Position numbers and translations under genes: made by a program
In this document: positions 8,866-31,764 of the stretch, piece after piece
Layout of the letters: each line of letters starts with the position of its first letter
Numbering within the stretch: position 1 is the first letter of the stretch
The notes under the pieces: model-generated
What the model was told of the DNA's origin: nothing
The model's input: only the letters and a program-made list of their open reading frames with translations
Databases searched by the model: none
Assembly: GCA_903923395.1 (NCBI GenBank)
Contig: CAIXXM010000112.1
Span: 1-42,403, forward strand
Reading direction: 5' to 3'
Origin: an uncultured Acidobacteriia bacterium
GTDB lineage: Bacteria > Acidobacteriota > Terriglobia > Bryobacterales > Bryobacteraceae
Length of the DNA stretch: 42,403 nucleotides

Positions 8866-11800
8866 CTAGAACCGGTACACGCCGCCGAACTGCATGACGC
8901 GCGGAGTGCTCAGTGTGCTGTTGTACTTGCCGAACGTGCTGGAGGCGCCCAGGTTCAGGCTGACCGTGTTCACGTCAAAGCGGGTGGTGTTGGTGATGTT
9001 GAAGACTTCCGCGCGCAGCTGGAACTTGTGGCTTTCTTTCCAGGGCATGGTGAAGGTCTTGCTCATGCTCGAATCGATGTTGAAGATACCGTCGCCGCGC
9101 AGGGTGTTGCGGGAGCCGGTCTGTCCGGGCATCGTGAACGCGAAGTCATTGAACGCCGCCGTCGGGTTGGCAAACATGTAAACGCCGTTGCCCGTCTTCA
9201 CGGTGCCTGCAGTCAACGGAGCCAACTGCGTGCCGTAACCGGAGAGGTTCCAGTTGGTGGGCCAGAAGCCGCCGTTGCCGACCGAAATCGGGAAGCCGGA
9301 GCTCTGGCGGTAGATACCGCTCAACTGCCAGCCGCCGAGGATTGCGTCAACCACCTTGTTCGAGTTGCCGAGGAACTTCTTGCCCTTGCCGACCGGGAGT
9401 TCATAGATCGCGAACGCCGTCACGTTGTGGGTCAAGTCATAGTCGGAGACAGCGCGCATCTGGCCGGTGTTCCAGGGATTGATGATCTGGCCGGACGTGA
9501 TGCTGTCGCTTTCGCGGGTGGAGGAAAGGTCGATGGACCGGGAGTAAGTGTAGTTGAAGTCGAACTGGAAGCCATTCGCATAGCGCTTCCGCACGCTGAA
9601 CTGCGCCGCGTTATACGCACCGGAACCGCGGGAACGGAACACAGCGAGCGAAGAGTACTGCGCATTCCACTGCTGGTAAGCACCATACTTGCCGCAGGGG
9701 CTGCAACCGGGGCCGTCGATATCAAGCAGCACGGAAGTCGCATCCGGCTCCGTCATGTAGAACTGCTGGTAGATCGACTGCGTGGCCGAAAGGCTGCTGG
9801 TCGCATAACCGGGGTAGAAGTTTTCAAAGAACGGCTGCTTCGTGATGTTCTTCACGGGCACGCCGGCATTGACCTGCTGCATCATGAGGGTCGCAGCCTG
9901 GAAGTAAGTCTGACCGGAGGTCGGGTCTTTCAGGTTGGTCGGGATGGCAACGTCGTCACCAACAATGGAGTGGCGGGACATCTTGCCAACATAAGCGACC
10001 TGCACCATGTAACCGCCCTTGAGTTCCCGTTCAATCGAGAAGTTCAGGTTGATGGTGTAGGGAGCGCGCAGCTTGTCATCGAGGCTGCTCGCGATCGCCC
10101 AGATATTGGGCGCGGTCTGCGGGAAGCCACCGGCGGGAGCGGGAATCAGCAGGCCGGCGGGAAGCGACGTCGGGCCCGTGAAGCGGGGAGCCGTCAGAGC
10201 GCTGGCGTTGGCCGGATTGGTGAGAGCCGTGGAGAAGCCGAGAGCAGTGGCGTCCACCTGACGGATCAAGCTGGAACCGAACTGGTCAAAGTACATACCG
10301 GCACCCATGCGGATGGAGGTCTTGCCGGGGCCGCCGAAGATCTTGCCGAGCAGACCATCGCTGTTCTGCGGAGAGAACGCAAGGCCGAGGCGCGGCGAGA
10401 AATCCTTCTGGAAGGGATACAGGGGACGTCCACCGGGCTTGCTGGTGAGATCGAAGCTGATGGGCGTGATCTTGGACTGGGGAATGCCCTGGTCAGCCAG
10501 CGCGCCGCGCTGATTAAACCAGTCAGACAGCGGAATGTTGGTGGTGGTCTGGATGCCGTTGGCTTCGCTAAGCGCGGGGGTCAACGTCATACGCAGACCA
10601 GCGATTACCGTGAGACCGCGGGTGACTTTCCACGTGTCCTGGAAGTAGGTTTCGAAGCCCTTATCGAGGAACTTGCGGGCAATCGGCGTACCCTGGGGCA
10701 GCACGTTGCCGCTCTTGTCGTAGTTATATTTCGCGTCACCTTCTGAAATGATGCCGAGCATGTCGGTCATCAGGCGGGTGTAAAGCGTGCTGTTCTTTGC
10801 ATCCGGAACCAGCAGGTTGCTGGTGCCGCTGCTGCCCGTGCCCTGCAGCCACGAAGAGTTCATGTAACCGTCGCTGAAGGAGTTGGCAGAGTTCAAACGC
10901 GTGGCCGAAGTGAACCGCATGTTGGCACCGAACGCGAACGTATGGGCACCCTTGTTCCAGGTGAAGTCATCCGCAATGGTGTGGGTGGGAACAGTCGCCG
11001 TCAGAGGACGGGTCGTCGGGTAAAGGAAGTCAATGGAACGCAGCGTCACATACGGCGCGGACTGGATGCCAGTCTGGTCATACGCCTGACGGGTCAAGCC
11101 ATAACGCATGTTGCTGACCAGGTTGCTGGAGATGATCCAGGTATCGCCAACGGCGACGCCCTTCGCATTCTGGAGCAACAGCGAGGAACTTGCCTGGCCG
11201 GGGAACTGTGGCAGACCGGTGGTGGAGTGGTCATTCTGCAGGTTGCCGCGGGCGAACATGGTGTTCTTCGAGTTCAGAACATAGTCGATCTTGGTGACGT
11301 AAGTGACGTACTTGAGGGGCAGACCGCTGTTGAAGGTATAGCCGGAGGTGTTGAGACCGTCACCAACTGCCGATGTGTTCGGCGAAGGATACTGCTGCAG
11401 GAACTTCAGCACAGCCTGGTTCGGTCCGATGTGCAGCGGATCAGCCTGCGCGGCAATCTGCGCGGGCGTCAGCGTGCCGATGGTGCCGTTCGTGCGGACG
11501 TAAGTGAAAGTACCCTGGCGGAACAGATCATTGGGAACGATGCGGGTTGCGGAACCCTGCGAAGCATCGCGGCGCTGTTCATAGCTGCCGAAGATGAAGA
11601 GTTTGTCCTTCTTGATGGGACCGCCGGCGGTGCCGCCGAAGATGTTGCGGATCAGTGCGGGTCGTCCCACACCGGCCGCGTTATTGAAGAAGCTGTTCGC
11701 TTCCGTCAGTGTATTGCGGTTGTATTCAAAGAGCGAACCCTTGAGCTGGTTCGTACCGGACTTGGTCACGAGCGAAACCTGTGCACCGCCGGAACGGCCG

Positions 11801-26677: not shown

Positions 26678-27829
26678 TTAACTCCCGACACTGAACTCCA
26701 CCCATCCCGCGAGCGTCGCGGGTTTGTTCTTCAGAAACACAATCTTCCTGGTCTTGGGGAACGGCAGACCACTCTTGATTGCCCGCTCGTAAAACGGCAA
26801 CAGACCCAGCACTTTTCTATGTGCCTGTTCCTCAGCACCAATCCCCAGTGACTTACTCAGGAACCCCGCGCCCCAGCCCACAGACAGCAGACAGCCGCCG
26901 TTCTCCCTCGCCTGTGCTAACTTGCTCTGCAACCCGGCAACAGCGGAAGCCAGCGCTTCCAACCCCGTCCACTTCGCATACTGCGCGTGTAGCTCCAGTT
27001 GTTTTGCGGCATAATCATTCGCCGCTAGGAATAACTTCTCCCGCGGAATCGGAGCACCCCACCGCAAAGACGCGCGCACTTCCTCCTGATTCAGGAACGC
27101 ATTCTCGTGCCATGAGCCCTCAAAGACAGTTCCCGGCTTGGCCATCTCCGCGAATGCCGGTGTCGATTCCTCCGGCCGGCTTCCCAGCGCAATCCCGCGC
27201 CCGGAAAGCTTCCAACCCAGCGCCAGTTGCTCCGGCGACTTCTGAAACAGCGTGGCAACCCGCAGTAAGTAGACCTGCAAAGCCTCTCGCGAGATATTTC
27301 CGGCATCGCCAATGCGGAACACACGCAACTTATCGGAATTTCCTGTCCCCAGAATCTGCTGCTCGATGTTCTCCGCCGGCCGCCGCGGCGAACGCTCCCC
27401 GGCCAGCCGTCCCGCCACCTCAGCCATCGCACCGGGCTTGGCATGCGCAAATAAGTACGCCGTACGCAGCGCACCCTTCAACACAGACCCCGCCAGATAA
27501 GGCCCGCGCGCATCCCTGGCAAAAGTCGGGATACTTAATACATCCGCCGGTGCCGCATTCCAGTAAGGCGTATAAGCCGCATCCTCAAACGGAATCCGCC
27601 GCTCCGCGAAGTTCTGCGCATAACCACCCCAGGACGCGAAATCCAGCTTCGTCCCCTTCGCCAACTGCGCCAGATAACTATCCAGCCGCGGACCCTTCGC
27701 ATTCAACTCAAAGATGCGTTTCTGGTTCAGCACGTTCACCTGATCGCGCCAAACCATGTAATCGATAGGGGAGAGCTTATCTCCGTCACCAGTCAACGTG
27801 GGAGTCAGCACAGTAACGCGGTACTTCAT
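26678..27829 (-). CDS. csm5: Type III-A CRISPR effector RAMP protein Csm5
   Basis: A 383-residue RAMP (Cas7-like) protein that caps the crRNA 3' end in Csm complexes. It starts MKYRVTVLTPTLTGDGDKLSPIDYM, matching the Csm5 signature of a T-P strand, G-D-G-x-K loop and SPIDY. PYLAGSVLKGALRTAYLF is the typical RAMP helix after the PGSS-like block. The start ATG overlaps the csm4 stop as ATGA at 27826-27829, so it is translationally coupled. The frame stays open to 28342, but that part lies inside csm4 and has no family similarity. This is the last gene of the operon, and nothing resembling an array follows it. Confidence 0.9.
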   Translation of the reverse strand: MKYRVTVLTPTLTGDGDKLSPIDYMVWRDQVNVLNQKRIFELNAKGPRLDSYLAQLAKGTKLDFASWGGYAQNFAERRIPFEDAAYTPYWNAAPADVLSIPTFARDARGPYLAGSVLKGALRTAYLFAHAKPGAMAEVAGRLAGERSPRRPAENIEQQILGTGNSDKLRVFRIGDAGNISREALQVYLLRVATLFQKSPEQLALGWKLSGRGIALGSRPEESTPAFAEMAKPGTVFEGSWHENAFLNQEEVRASLRWGAPIPREKLFLAANDYAAKQLELHAQYAKWTGLEALASAVAGLQSKLAQARENGGCLLSVGWGAGFLSKSLGIGAEEQAHRKVLGLLPFYERAIKSGLPFPKTRKIVFLKNKPATLAGWVEFSVGS

Positions 27830-28878
27830 TCGCTGATCTCCTCTTCGCCACTGGCGCTTTCTTCCTGTTCCATCACCACCGGTTCCGGGACAACTGCCGC
27901 CGGTACAGGCACCACCGGCTCCACTACCTGCAGCCCCGCCAGCGCAATCGGAATCGCCAGTGCGAACCCGCTGCGGTACACCGGATGCGCAAACCCTTCC
28001 GGAGCCACATCCACAGCCTGTCCGCACAATGCCGGAGCCGCCAGCACAGAGCCCTCTTCCACCATGCGGACGTGCTTCTTTTTCGGCGCTCCCGCCGGGG
28101 AATCCGTCCAGCCGCCGCGCTCCTGAATCACATACTCGCCCTGCGCCCAATCCACGCTGTCCGCGGCAACCGGCGAATACAGAGACAACAGCCACCAGGC
28201 CCCCTGCACTTCCACTTCCGGGAACAGCTTCGCAACTGGATGAAACTCCGGTTCCGCCGCACGTCCCCAGCCGCGCGAACGTTCGCCGCCAAAGCCGGTA
28301 TCCGCCAGCAAACGGAACGCCGCACGCACACGCGGCTCCCACCGGGCCTCACGAATATCAACCAAGCCCCACATGCCCGCCCGCGGATGAAACTCCAGAC
28401 AGGCAACACGGTGCGGCTCTCCGGCCACGCCACTGACACGGTCCACCGCCACAGACGACCGCAGAGAAACGCGGAACGGTGCGGAAGCACCCCCGGGAAT
28501 CAGACAGCCACTGGCCCCATCCACGGCATAACGGTTCTCATCAAACGCACCCAGCGCGACATCCAGCGGCACCAGCTTCGCACCCTTCAAATACAAGCGG
28601 CTCGAAACCGCCGGCGGCCACGAAGTCTTCGGCGGAGGCACCAGCCGCGTGTTCCCCGCAAAAGGAAACAGCGAACTGAACCGCACCGCGGGACCCTCCG
28701 CGGAACGCACCGTCGCCTCCAGCCACTCCTCCAGCCACCCCAGCGAACGCATGGCCTGCGTTACCGCTGAGAAAAGAGAATCAGAGTGGTAGACCGCATC
28801 CACACGCGTGCGGTCTCCGCTGGAATGTCCAATGCGCCACGGACCCGCAGGCCGCAGCTTTACTTCAAGCAGCGCCAT
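27826..28878 (-). CDS. csm4: Type III-A CRISPR effector RAMP protein Csm4
   Basis: A 350-residue Cas5-like RAMP protein that binds the crRNA 5' tag and contacts Cas10. The N-terminus VKLRPAGPWRIG and HSDSLFSAVTQAMRSLGW follow the Csm4 pattern. The glycine-rich loop DTGFGGERSRGWGRA, about residues 210-224, is diagnostic of Cas5/Cas7-type RAMPs. SGFALAIPI near residue 305 matches the usual YRYGKAFPIPI-like C-terminal block. After it lies an extra tail of about 40 residues, Pro/Val-rich then acidic (EQEESASGEEEISE), not needed for the fold. The start is 3 bases after the csm3 stop. Confidence 0.9.
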   Translation of the reverse strand: MALLEVKLRPAGPWRIGHSSGDRTRVDAVYHSDSLFSAVTQAMRSLGWLEEWLEATVRSAEGPAVRFSSLFPFAGNTRLVPPPKTSWPPAVSSRLYLKGAKLVPLDVALGAFDENRYAVDGASGCLIPGGASAPFRVSLRSSVAVDRVSGVAGEPHRVACLEFHPRAGMWGLVDIREARWEPRVRAAFRLLADTGFGGERSRGWGRAAEPEFHPVAKLFPEVEVQGAWWLLSLYSPVAADSVDWAQGEYVIQERGGWTDSPAGAPKKKHVRMVEEGSVLAAPALCGQAVDVAPEGFAHPVYRSGFALAIPIALAGLQVVEPVVPVPAAVVPEPVVMEQEESASGEEEISE

Positions 28879-28881
28879 GCC

Positions 28882-29715
28882 TTAAGCCGCAACCAGGGAA
28901 TCACCAATCTCAGCCACCTTGGCCTGCAACGCCGCCAAGTCCACGCCAGCAGCGAGTTCCTGCTCGGGTGCACCCGCCGCATAGTAATCCTTGCCGCGCC
29001 ACACCAGCTTCAGCCCATGGAAACTCACACTGCCGGACCCGCGCGAACCACCGCCGCCCAGCGTGTCATCCTCCAGCAGCCGCAAACCCTGCAGCAGCAA
29101 CCCCGTCAACACAGCATCTTCCGGGCACAACTGGTCGATCACCATGCGGATCTTGAACTTCGCACCCGCGGGCACGCGCTCCAGCGTTCGCGGATTGGCC
29201 TGCGAAGTAATGCGGTCAATCGCATTCTCGCTCTTCACTTCCGTTAGTTCATCGTCCAGGTTTTCACGCATCTGCGGCGTGATGCTTTCGAGCACCAGCG
29301 GCGCGTCAAACACCGCCAAGCGCGCCGGCGTGGCATGGTGACTGTCGATTTCACCGCCGCCCACCTTCTCCATGCGCCCCGGGTTGCGCCCAAACAGCAG
29401 GCAGATCTCATCATCCGGACGGTCACTCTGGTGGATGCGCACTTCCTGGCCCTTGCGCTTCGAGATATAAACCAGCTCCGAAGGTACTGCCGCACCCGTG
29501 GCCTGCTCCAGCAGCGCACGAATACGCCCGCGCAAAGAACTGCCGGGCAGATACGGACGGCCCTGCGAATCCTTCACCACCGGATTATCCGCCCCGCCGA
29601 TTTCGAGCGAGCCCTTTCCCGCGCCAATATGCAGCCCCGTCCCGCAAACCAATTCGCCTTCGAGAATCAGCTTCCCGATCAACTTCAATTCCGTTTTTGC
29701 CGTGTGAGCGCTCAT
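28882..29715 (-). CDS. csm3: Type III-A CRISPR effector backbone RNase Csm3
   Basis: A 277-residue Cas7-type protein forming the helical backbone on the crRNA and cutting target RNA at 6-nt steps. Family blocks are clear: CGTGLHIGAGKGSLEIGGADNPVVKD, then LPGSSLRGRIRALLE. The aspartate used for RNA cleavage (D32/D33 in characterised Csm3 proteins, in the AIDSPVVRD block) is conserved as D43 in ADNPVVKD (codon 29587-29589). Late in the chain, LGGGGSRGSGSVSF is the glycine-rich loop. It is slightly longer than usual, mainly at both ends. GGAGAG lies 7 bases before the ATG, giving a good start. RNase activity should therefore be intact. Confidence 0.93.
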   Translation of the reverse strand: MSAHTAKTELKLIGKLILEGELVCGTGLHIGAGKGSLEIGGADNPVVKDSQGRPYLPGSSLRGRIRALLEQATGAAVPSELVYISKRKGQEVRIHQSDRPDDEICLLFGRNPGRMEKVGGGEIDSHHATPARLAVFDAPLVLESITPQMRENLDDELTEVKSENAIDRITSQANPRTLERVPAGAKFKIRMVIDQLCPEDAVLTGLLLQGLRLLEDDTLGGGGSRGSGSVSFHGLKLVWRGKDYYAAGAPEQELAAGVDLAALQAKVAEIGDSLVAA

Positions 29716-29744: not shown

Positions 29745-30329
29745 CTATTCGTTGTAAGCAACAATGGCTTCGAACAGATCGCGGAACCGTTCATAGCCGC
29801 GCAGTTCGTTCTTGCGGGTGACCTGCAGCAGCAGCCGTTCCATCTGGTCCAGGCTGCGCAGACCGTGGCGCGCAATGGTGTAGGCAAGCCGCGCCCGCAG
29901 CATCACGAACTCATGCTGCCGTTCATTTTCAGGGGCACGCGTGGCACGGCGGACAGCGTTGTAAAACCGCCGCAACTGGCTGCGTGTGCCGGAATCCATA
30001 TCCCGCATGCGGCTGACTACAGCGTGCGCCTGGTTATCCAGATAGAGGCTGTCGTTCACTAGCTTCTCCAGATCCACTTCCATGCCCGCATCGCCACGGA
30101 ACGCACCGGGCGCACCGCCACCAGGCCTCGGCCCGCGGTCACCACCCGGACGGTCTCCGCCCGGCCGCTCGCCACCGTGTCTCGGACCCCTGTCGCCACC
30201 GGGGCGCTGCCCGCCACCCTGGCGGTTGTCACCCCCTGGCCGCGGACCACCACCCTGCGGCTTCCCGCCATCTCTCGGCGGACGGTTCTGACCCGCGCGG
30301 TTTTCCTGTTTTGCCTGTTCTTCCGCCAT
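29745..30329 (-). CDS. csm2: Type III-A CRISPR small subunit Csm2 with RGG/GRP-rich N-terminal extension
   Basis: A 194-residue protein, choosing ATG 30329 because GGAG lies 9 bases upstream; a GTG at 30359 overlaps the cas10 end. Residues about 83-194 are an all-helical domain of Csm2 size (VDLEKLVNDSLYLDNQAHAVV, TRSQLRRFYNAVRRATR, LARHGL-like YTIARHGLRSLDQMERLL). That position, between cas10 and csm3, is standard for csm2. Residues about 10-80 are a low-complexity extension of G, R, P, D and Q with repeats such as RPGGDR and RGPR. Ordinary Csm2 is about 110-150 residues and lacks this. The tail resembles RNA-binding RGG regions. Confidence 0.85.
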   Translation of the reverse strand: MAEEQAKQENRAGQNRPPRDGGKPQGGGPRPGGDNRQGGGQRPGGDRGPRHGGERPGGDRPGGDRGPRPGGGAPGAFRGDAGMEVDLEKLVNDSLYLDNQAHAVVSRMRDMDSGTRSQLRRFYNAVRRATRAPENERQHEFVMLRARLAYTIARHGLRSLDQMERLLLQVTRKNELRGYERFRDLFEAIVAYNE

Positions 30330-30345: not shown

Positions 30346-31764
30346 TTATCCCTTTGCACTCAGCCGGGCCCATTCCATGGCCACCAGCCCCTCCGGCCGC
30401 AGCTTCAGCCGCCCCCGGATGTTCTTGCCCGTCATCTCTTTCATGAGGTGCGAGCGCAGTTTCTGAAACTCTTTCTCCCGCTTGCCCGCCGCCCGCGCGA
30501 ATTGCCTTTGGAAACGCAACGCCCGCGCCCGCAGGCGCTCATCTTCGCTGCGTTCCGCGGTCTCCACTTTCTTGTAGAGATTCCGCAGTTGCGTCACAAA
30601 CTGCCTGCCGGACCGGAATTCCTCGGTGAGCTTCGCGACGGCATCTTTCAGCTCCGCCGCACTGCTCAGGTGCCGCCATTCCAAGACGCGCCCCAGCAAA
30701 TGTATACAATCCTTGTCGCTCGCCTTCGCTACTTCCAGATCCCGCCCTGCCATTTCATACACATGGCCCAGGGTCTCTTCCGCATCGGCGATCCGAAGCG
30801 CCATCGAAATCGTCTTCGCTTCACCGCCGGGCAGCTCTTTCAAGTTCTCCGCGGTGAAGCGGGCGAAGATCCTTTCCAACTCCTGCGCAAAGCCCGCCAG
30901 CGCATCCCACGCACCGTAGACTGCGAAGCCGGAAGTCGTCGCATAGAGCACCGTCACGCTCTGAAAGTAATCCGGCTGCGAACAAAGCAGTTCCAACTCG
31001 CCAGCCAGGAACTGTTTGTAGAGCAGAGCCAGAGTCACATACTCTTCCACACTCTGCACGCGCCGCAGACGCAGTGCAAAATCATCGAACTCGCCGCGCA
31101 GAACACCCCAGAGCCGCTGCCCTTTCGACCGGCCAGCCAGTTGTGCGGTGCTGGCAGGGCCGTTGTCCGTTTGCGCCTGATGCCGCGAGAGCGAAATGTT
31201 GCCCATCGAAGCCTGCGCGCTCAGATCCCAGTGGTATTGGCCGCCCTCCGCGGCAATTAAGGCAGGGAAATCAAACGAGAACCCCACACCCGCCGCTTCC
31301 CGCAGACCGGGAGGAGTCGCGTCATCCGAGGGTGCTGTCTTCTCGAAGGCAGCGAAGAAACCCGGCTCCAGAGGCACCTTGTGGCGCTGTTCCCGAAGGC
31401 CGTCGTTGAGCCGCTTGCGGACGACTGTCCATGCCCCCAGGTTTTCCGTGGCACTCCAGATCAAACGCAGCGCGGAGTTAGTCGCGGTTTGGATAGTTGC
31501 AGCGGCGCGTGTCAGAAATTGCGCAGCGGCATCGGCGCGCCCTTGATCCGGCAGGATCACCAGGAATTCATTGCGGTCCGCTGTGCCCATCAGCAGCAGG
31601 GGCAGTTGCAGTTCTGACAACAGCGCACGGGGCAGCACCTCGCCCAGCAGCGTGACCCACGCGGTGCGCGCTTCAAACACAACATTGTTCTGGCCGGCGG
31701 AACCGCTGGAGAGAAAGTTTTCCACTCCCAGCAGACGCCCTTGCAGCAAAATCTGCGCTGACAT
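30346..31764 (-). CDS. cas10: Reduced Cas10 (Csm1-like), no HD domain, GGDD replaced by TTSG
   Basis: A 472-residue protein from ATG 31764; an in-frame ATG at 31809 would add 15 residues. It begins directly with a Palm1-like segment (LLQGRLLGVENFLSSGS). The second palm is recognisable: VTVLYATTSGFAVYGAWDALAGFAQELERIFARFT, then TISMALRIADAEETLGHVYEMAGRDLEVAKAS. These align with the Csm1 LYSGGDDLFIVGAWD and RAAELAGEALDRAK regions. The cyclase GGDD is TTSG (residues 276-279, codons 30928-30939). No N-terminal HD nuclease domain and no CxxC zinc pairs exist. Typical Csm1 is about 750-850 residues. It is the first operon gene, 62 bases from a divergent amidohydrolase. Confidence 0.85.
   Translation of the reverse strand: MSAQILLQGRLLGVENFLSSGSAGQNNVVFEARTAWVTLLGEVLPRALLSELQLPLLLMGTADRNEFLVILPDQGRADAAAQFLTRAAATIQTATNSALRLIWSATENLGAWTVVRKRLNDGLREQRHKVPLEPGFFAAFEKTAPSDDATPPGLREAAGVGFSFDFPALIAAEGGQYHWDLSAQASMGNISLSRHQAQTDNGPASTAQLAGRSKGQRLWGVLRGEFDDFALRLRRVQSVEEYVTLALLYKQFLAGELELLCSQPDYFQSVTVLYATTSGFAVYGAWDALAGFAQELERIFARFTAENLKELPGGEAKTISMALRIADAEETLGHVYEMAGRDLEVAKASDKDCIHLLGRVLEWRHLSSAAELKDAVAKLTEEFRSGRQFVTQLRNLYKKVETAERSEDERLRARALRFQRQFARAAGKREKEFQKLRSHLMKEMTGKNIRGRLKLRPEGLVAMEWARLSAKG

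Follow-up and report, generated by a model that had tools for sequence, protein, structure and literature searches.

The csm operon of the window and its Cas10

The window, by which we mean the whole 42,403-nucleotide stretch of DNA analysed here, carries five genes on its minus strand in the order cas10-csm2-csm3-csm4-csm5. The first (30346..31764) encodes a mini-Cas10, or Csm1, of 472 residues comprising Palm1, Palm2 and a C-terminal helical domain. Its open reading frame (31764-30346, minus strand) was read from an ATG; an upstream GTG would give 502 residues, and the alignments of relatives' Cas10 begin at the ATG, not at the GTG. It is followed by csm2 (Cas11; 29745..30329; 194 residues), csm3, which encodes the Cas7 backbone subunit (28882..29715; 277 residues) and retains an intact aspartate in GGADNPVV, csm4 (Cas5; 27826..28878; 350 residues) and csm5 (26678..27829; about 383 residues), which overlaps csm4 by 4 nt. 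No stops were found within the csm genes of the window, and the scores of Csm2, Csm3, Csm4 and Csm5 all exceed the curated NCBIfam cut-offs, in line with the first-pass annotation, which had described these remaining subunits as intact.

Csm2 begins with an extension of about 92 residues that is rich in G, R and P (30054-30329) and probably disordered. Its median length over 91 distinct relatives is 80 residues, G, R and P making up at least half of it in 53 of the 91, and it resembles RGG RNA-binding tails. Rfam gave no matches in the window, and no non-coding stretch shared with the window was seen in the flanks compared (up to 300 bases upstream and 400 downstream of the operon). The gene family most frequent near the operon, AAA-ATPase-like by eye, is found at only 12 of 81 loci.

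The short first protein had been taken for a Cas10, and both profiles and structure comparison bear this out. The Csm1 profile TIGR02578 aligned residues 190-448 to profile positions 480-737 of 753 (E 5.7e-30) with a score of 104.6 bits, under the 170-bit cut-off, and the Pfam model Cas10-Cmr2_palm2 matched above its cut-off over residues 221-354. An AlphaFold2 model, built from an alignment of the window Cas10 with 50 relatives, reached a pLDDT of 87.3 and a pTM of 0.87. When this model was submitted to Foldseek, Csm1 chains or Csm complexes accounted for all matches listed (50 of 470), with query TM scores among these of 0.56-0.79.

Alignment of the family profile with M. canettii Csm1 places Palm1 (positions 10-90) against residues 272-352 and Palm2 (220-320) against 543-662, the inter-palm stretch being shorter in the family. 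The window protein aligns from Palm1 of M. canettii Csm1, indicating that the HD domain which precedes it there is missing here, as had been proposed. The reported lack of CxxC pairs was likewise reproduced, both for the window protein and in 114 of 115 Cas10 rows. In the alignment with relatives TTSG occupies the Palm2 position of GGDD, and the first-strand RGDVD of most relatives reads RGEFD. The alignments and the predicted model confirm a Csm1/Cas10 fold with no HD domain, no zinc motif and no GGDD, and such a protein would presumably be devoid of catalysis.

Distribution, motif loss and selection across the family

A first scan of genome contigs in which the window protein was the sole query gave no relatives. 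In a single-sequence search of 396 genomes of the phylum there were 11 with a match; full-length matches came from all three members of the window's family, and the eight others were weak and partial (E 9.9e-12 to 4.9e-4). A three-sequence Cas10 profile was then used on 237 genomes of the family, and mini-Cas10 was found in 215 of them, including 143 of the 148 good ones, and in 70 of 76 genera, usually as one match per genome. Within the window's genus it is present in 18 of 19 genomes, the exception (G400) being 83% complete. Related public contigs are labelled Bryobacterales, Bryobacteraceae, Solibacter, Terriglobia, Acidobacteriia or similar, with one Nevskia, among 80 of 126 relatives. 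As judged from these sequences, the short Cas10 without HD and zinc domains is a family-wide form and not peculiar to the window locus.

The operon is also complete wherever enough sequence follows. Of 98 family loci (some genomes being counted twice), 66 extend 4.5 kb or more past cas10, and every one of these has the five genes together on the same strand. Overall this holds for 78 of the 98, the other 20 ending 143-2,978 bases after cas10. Three loci from other families (L015, L016, L017) have some Csm subunits without a match. Longer Cas10-like frames occur beside mini-Cas10 in at least two family genomes, one of 818 residues in G430 (C49:15961-17328) and one of 840 in G538 (C1:3732851-3733504).

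Cas10 and rpoB trees were compared for 29 of 30 chosen genomes, G439 having no rpoB match. The two trees share 15 of 26 splits. Fourteen of the 15 Cas10 splits with support of at least 95 are found in the rpoB tree and none conflicts with a strong rpoB split, while 12 of 15 strongly supported rpoB splits recur in the Cas10 tree. Monophyly in both trees was seen for six genera represented by at least two genomes, and the distances are correlated (Mantel r 0.73, a value reached in none of 2000 permutations). The remaining 11 splits are not shared, and G440 and G482 are placed differently. Gene and species trees, with rpoB standing for the latter, point to a Cas10 that largely follows the species.

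Catalytic motifs were read in 101 distinct Cas10 proteins left after removing duplicates, frames shorter than 300 residues and rows gapped in the motif; the sample leans to close relatives, since it consists mostly of best matches and further genus members. Counting as cyclase motifs those found beside known effectors in PMC11229360, 75 of the 101 have an accepted motif together with the first-strand aspartate, and one carries GGDD but not the aspartate. In the other 25 the motif is gone. Eighteen of these form one clade (support 1.0) made up of the window and 17 other members of its genus, that is, all 18 genus members read, and seven are scattered (L055, L090, L099, L121, L138, L140, L141). 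Fitch parsimony over the sampled tree counts seven changes of the motif in all, an approximate figure because the GSDD of L090 and L099 may still be functional and L138, L140 and L141 are divergent. The genus has varied residues at the GGDD site (TTSG, DTAD, ENAE, GAAD, GSAD and others). The suggestion that TTSG marks a real subtype was rejected on these readings: relatives have GGDD at the same site, most sampled proteins keep the accepted motif and first-strand aspartate, and what extends across the family is the short architecture.

The aspartate of Csm3 in GG(A/S)DNPV behaves differently from the Cas10 motif. All 99 distinct proteins read have it, also where Cas10 looks dead, and it aligns with that of solved Csm3s; from the streptococcal literature we take it to be the slicer residue. 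Sensors of cyclic oligonucleotides present a puzzle, for most of the sampled Cas10 proteins retain GGDD even though the sensors we searched for appear absent or rare: Csx1_CARF matched in none of 237 family genomes in a profile search whose controls match in two archaea, and Csm6_CARF in six of 237, three of them over the cut-off, with no control matched.

Ratios of dN to dS were calculated by NG86 for pairs at least 70% identical. For cas10 in the genus without the motif (g1), the six closest of 21 pairs gave 0.041, 0.068, 0.066, 0.081, 0.079 and 0.108, and in a genus that keeps GGDD (g2) the six closest of 90 pairs gave 0.032-0.103, single ratios being rough as many dS values lie near 1. For csm2-csm5 the ratios listed for g1 and g2 pairs run from 0.033 to 0.163, save for L107/L115 (g2), where csm4 reached 0.205 and csm5 0.517. 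The window cas10 falls outside all of these pairs because of the identity floor: it is 59-62% identical to its five nearest relatives in the genus, with dN of 0.31-0.36 and dS of 1.67-2.75, near saturation. The low ratios in close genus pairs, together with the invariant Csm3 aspartate, argue for a preserved complex and not for decay. The first-pass description of the locus as stable stands to that extent, with motif loss in every genus member read tracing to a single clade.

Cas6, Cas1 and CRISPR arrays

Matches to the Cas6 family PF10040 come from 198 of the 237 genomes, among them 130 of the 148 good ones and every one of the 19 from the genus. The genome of the window (G000) has its Cas6 at C57:75979-76329, on a contig other than that of the operon. 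Cas6 occurs in 186 of 215 operon genomes and in 84 of the 101 that have the operon without Cas1, and also in 12 of 22 genomes without the operon. This count is mixed, as at least 17 genomes have a listed Cas6 on the same contig as Cas1 (G406, G414, G416, G424, G455, G461, G468, G470, G485, G504, G510, G512, G534, G555, G558, G610 and G625); in G406 the Cas6 on the Cas1 contig is the sole match. In an alignment of 18 of 20 Cas6 loci, from which L200 (divergent) and L195 (frame cut) were excluded, all sequences share one histidine (residue 205 of the G000 protein) and glycines in the terminal loop. The core Cas6 profile had no match in the PDB. In 19 of the 20 Cas6 stretches, which span 4.7-20 kb, neither of two scans revealed array-like repeats; L200 has an array. 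G410 has an array roughly 7 kb away from its Cas6, beyond the scanned stretch, and a second Cas6 match on contig C42 together with another array. A core-like Cas6 also adjoins an array in G503, which is among the five good genomes that lack the operon.

Cas1 is present in 120 of 237 family genomes and 81 of 148 good ones; none was found in G000. Operon and Cas1 occur together in 114 genomes, the operon alone in 101, Cas1 alone in six and neither in 16, a cross-count that takes G570 and G581, which the listed Cas10 matches do not include, as Cas10-negative; 64 good genomes have the operon and no Cas1. On gene content, the operon is uncoupled from adaptation. Many family Cas1 matches lie in open frames of about 580-720 residues (for example G414:C79:1598-2455 and G557:C111:64737-65597), the length of which suggests fusions to a reverse transcriptase or Cas4.

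Arrays were sought with a pattern of three ATTGARAC handles at array spacing, which sees arrays of at least three units with that handle. Fifty of the 237 genomes gave matches, the backwards control none in the rows, and Cas1 is present in 46 of the 50, so that these arrays track Cas1. Neither Cas1 nor the pattern was found in 97 of 215 operon genomes, which is odd for a crRNA-dependent defence. Searching the whole G000 assembly with two repeat patterns revealed no arrays, and none was seen in a free repeat scan of 1.19 Mb of its 6.15 Mb; as a control, the free scan recovered arrays in six of seven loci, missing L301.

Arrays do occur in relatives, with repeats of CCCC-N6-AAGGGGATTGAGAC-type. 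Searched as CCCC-N6-RAGGGGA(T/C)TGARAC (backwards control 0-1 per strand), they form arrays in the genus genomes G410, G411, G414, G415 and G416, each of which has one match to the Cas10 profile. The pattern gave one to three matches in eight other genus genomes and none in G000, G400, G402, G404, G405 and G409. Some G414 arrays of this repeat type share contigs with Cas1 (C79, C156, C170), and no cas genes were recognised by eye around those at G410:C60, G411:C73, G414:C159 and G415:C240. Solitary perfect repeats of the Cas6-associated type were noted at L239:1440-1524 (G412) and L236:1500-1524 (G408); the former lies downstream of a stretch that looks promoter-like by eye. It might be all that is left of a lost array, as its last unit, or else a single-guide RNA. 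A four-repeat array with two identical spacers lies at L300:3556-3824 (G411), with no cas gene recognised nearby.

Other regular repeats were examined and set aside. Seven flagged pieces of G000 (L314, L320, L325, L328, L333, L353, L377) consist of tandem or REP-like units and hold no spacers. A dispersed, often clustered, palindromic REP-like element around ACGCGCGCCAGAATGGCGCACGAAC is found in this genome at L320:11900-12230, L325:210-560, L353:1-180, L377:8680-9000, L314:4560-4780 and L328:7660-7730. Beside the Csm operons of the family, none of the flagged repeats inspected was an array. Those in L114, L118 and L089 are tandem and spacer-free, the L114 copies (70 bp; 9587-9936) standing directly upstream of mini-cas10. 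Ten further operon loci were flagged (L061, L066, L069, L073, L077, L078, L156, L161, L164, L165), and the repeats at several flagged operon loci fall inside csm4 or csm5 frames by their coordinates.

Possible roles and relation to known type III systems

We consider it rather probable that the operon encodes a III-A Csm complex cut down to guide-directed RNA slicing and fed in trans. Cas10 would have lost its HD DNase and zinc domain throughout the family and, in the window's genus, its cyclase as well, and would now have a structural role, capping the complex where the 5' end of the guide lies, with target RNA cut by Csm3. A Cas6 encoded elsewhere would process transcripts of the CCCC-N6 arrays, in the relatives that have them, into guides delivered in trans; that these arrays feed the Csm complex, and that the complex assembles, binds guides and slices, we infer from the genes. 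Operon completeness, the presence of Cas10 in 215 of 237 family genomes, agreement with rpoB, the Csm3 aspartate, low dN/dS, the unlinked Cas6 and the relatives' arrays speak for this reading. Against it we weighed that G000 showed no Cas1, and no array with either repeat pattern or in the 1.19 Mb scanned freely, that none was seen beside the Csm operons inspected or in 19 of 20 Cas6 stretches, the many operon genomes where both Cas1 and the array pattern are missing, the mixed Cas6 count, the arrays on Cas1 contigs, the retention of GGDD in most sampled proteins though the tested CARF sensors are absent or rare, and the near-saturated dS of the window.

That the operon is so frequent where memory genes are not detected hints at a role beyond the usual immune pattern. 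Cas6 and Csm might have been domesticated as a housekeeping machine that cleaves or binds RNA under an endogenous, non-CRISPR guide, with array immunity an occasional extra, a reading that we hold possible but would put forward only tentatively. Equally tentative is its extension to the whole family, in which Csm and Cas6 would form an RNA-guided ribonuclease that belongs to the core genome, passes down vertically, uses an endogenous guide and does not depend on CRISPR memory; its dispensable cyclase would have been discarded repeatedly and once genus-wide. The near-universal, species-tree-like occurrence with usually one Cas10 match per genome would fit, as would the G/R/P-rich Csm2 extension, the frequency of Cas6 in operon genomes that have no Cas1, and the 97 operon genomes in which Cas1 and array pattern are both missing. 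However, neither Rfam on the window nor comparison of the non-coding flanks turned up a guide RNA, relatives of the same genus carry real arrays with stem-and-handle repeats, and more than half of the genomes without the operon still have Cas6.

The remaining readings fare worse. A complex that binds transcripts as a block or decoy, with no slicing and no signalling, would agree with the apparent loss of both Cas10 activities in the window's genus, yet we think it improbable given a slicer aspartate that never varies, dead-Cas10 proteins included. It is very unlikely that the missing activities come in trans from another Cas10 or an HD protein: the longer frames of G430 and G538 could be read that way, but G000 has no Csm1 match beyond the window's own, which also bears on the question, raised in the first-pass annotation, of a cyclase gene supplied in trans. 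Least credible is a functionless, decaying relic. The diversity of dead motifs in the genus and the altered Palm1 hairpin of the window would suit it, and the window's own dN/dS, being near saturation, inspires low confidence; decay was nonetheless rejected on the low ratios of all five genes in close genus pairs, and the stop-free genes of the window and the presence of Cas10 in all genus genomes save the incomplete G400 likewise speak against it.

CRISPR-Cas loci are usually gained and lost over time. In this family an effector operon resembles a housekeeping operon in its behaviour and reaches 70 of 76 genera, whereas about half of the genomes have Cas1. The cyclase motif, a key element of most type III immunity, has changed about seven times on the sampled tree while the RNA-slicing aspartate stays constant. 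The family offers a natural series in which to ask if selection would maintain a type III complex for its RNA slicing and nothing else, and if a CRISPR effector of several subunits can be co-opted for a cellular role.

In gene order, subunit families, Csm1 fold and Csm3 aspartate the window's operon resembles type III-A, in which an active GGDD cyclase is usual though not universal. It departs from the usual III-A locus in having no HD domain and no zinc motif, in the genus-wide loss of the cyclase motif, in having no cas6, cas1 or array adjoining the operon, and in being near-universal in its family. The part of PMC11229360 drawn on here gives an HD nuclease in 65% of III-A Cas10 proteins. 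Cas10 proteins without HD are common: among 1113 type III loci HD is present in 39%, a cyclase in 92% and both in 34%, from which we reckon about 3% with neither. Among the titles listed in searches of the open PMC library none deals with this operon, and the combination of III-A genes, a Cas10 without HD and cyclase, a kept Cas7 aspartate and near-fixation in a family was not found in these searches or in the passages covered.

Other reduced type III systems match the window in some respects, as far as the excerpts of their descriptions go. III-G and III-H share an inactivated cyclase and the absence of an adaptation module, trans guides having been suggested for III-G, but their HD looks active and their Cas7 aspartates are not conserved, the reverse of the window. 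III-I (PMC12669027) likewise has no cyclase, keeps Cas7 aspartates and is predicted to cleave RNA; its Cas10, however, has no polymerase/cyclase domain and its Cas7 units are fused (Cas7-11i), whereas the window keeps both Palm folds and separate csm3, csm4 and csm5 genes. In III-C, as described in part of PMC11229360, cyclase sites are also absent and HD is recognisable in half of the loci, so that the rest appear to have neither; the window differs from these in its III-A genes.
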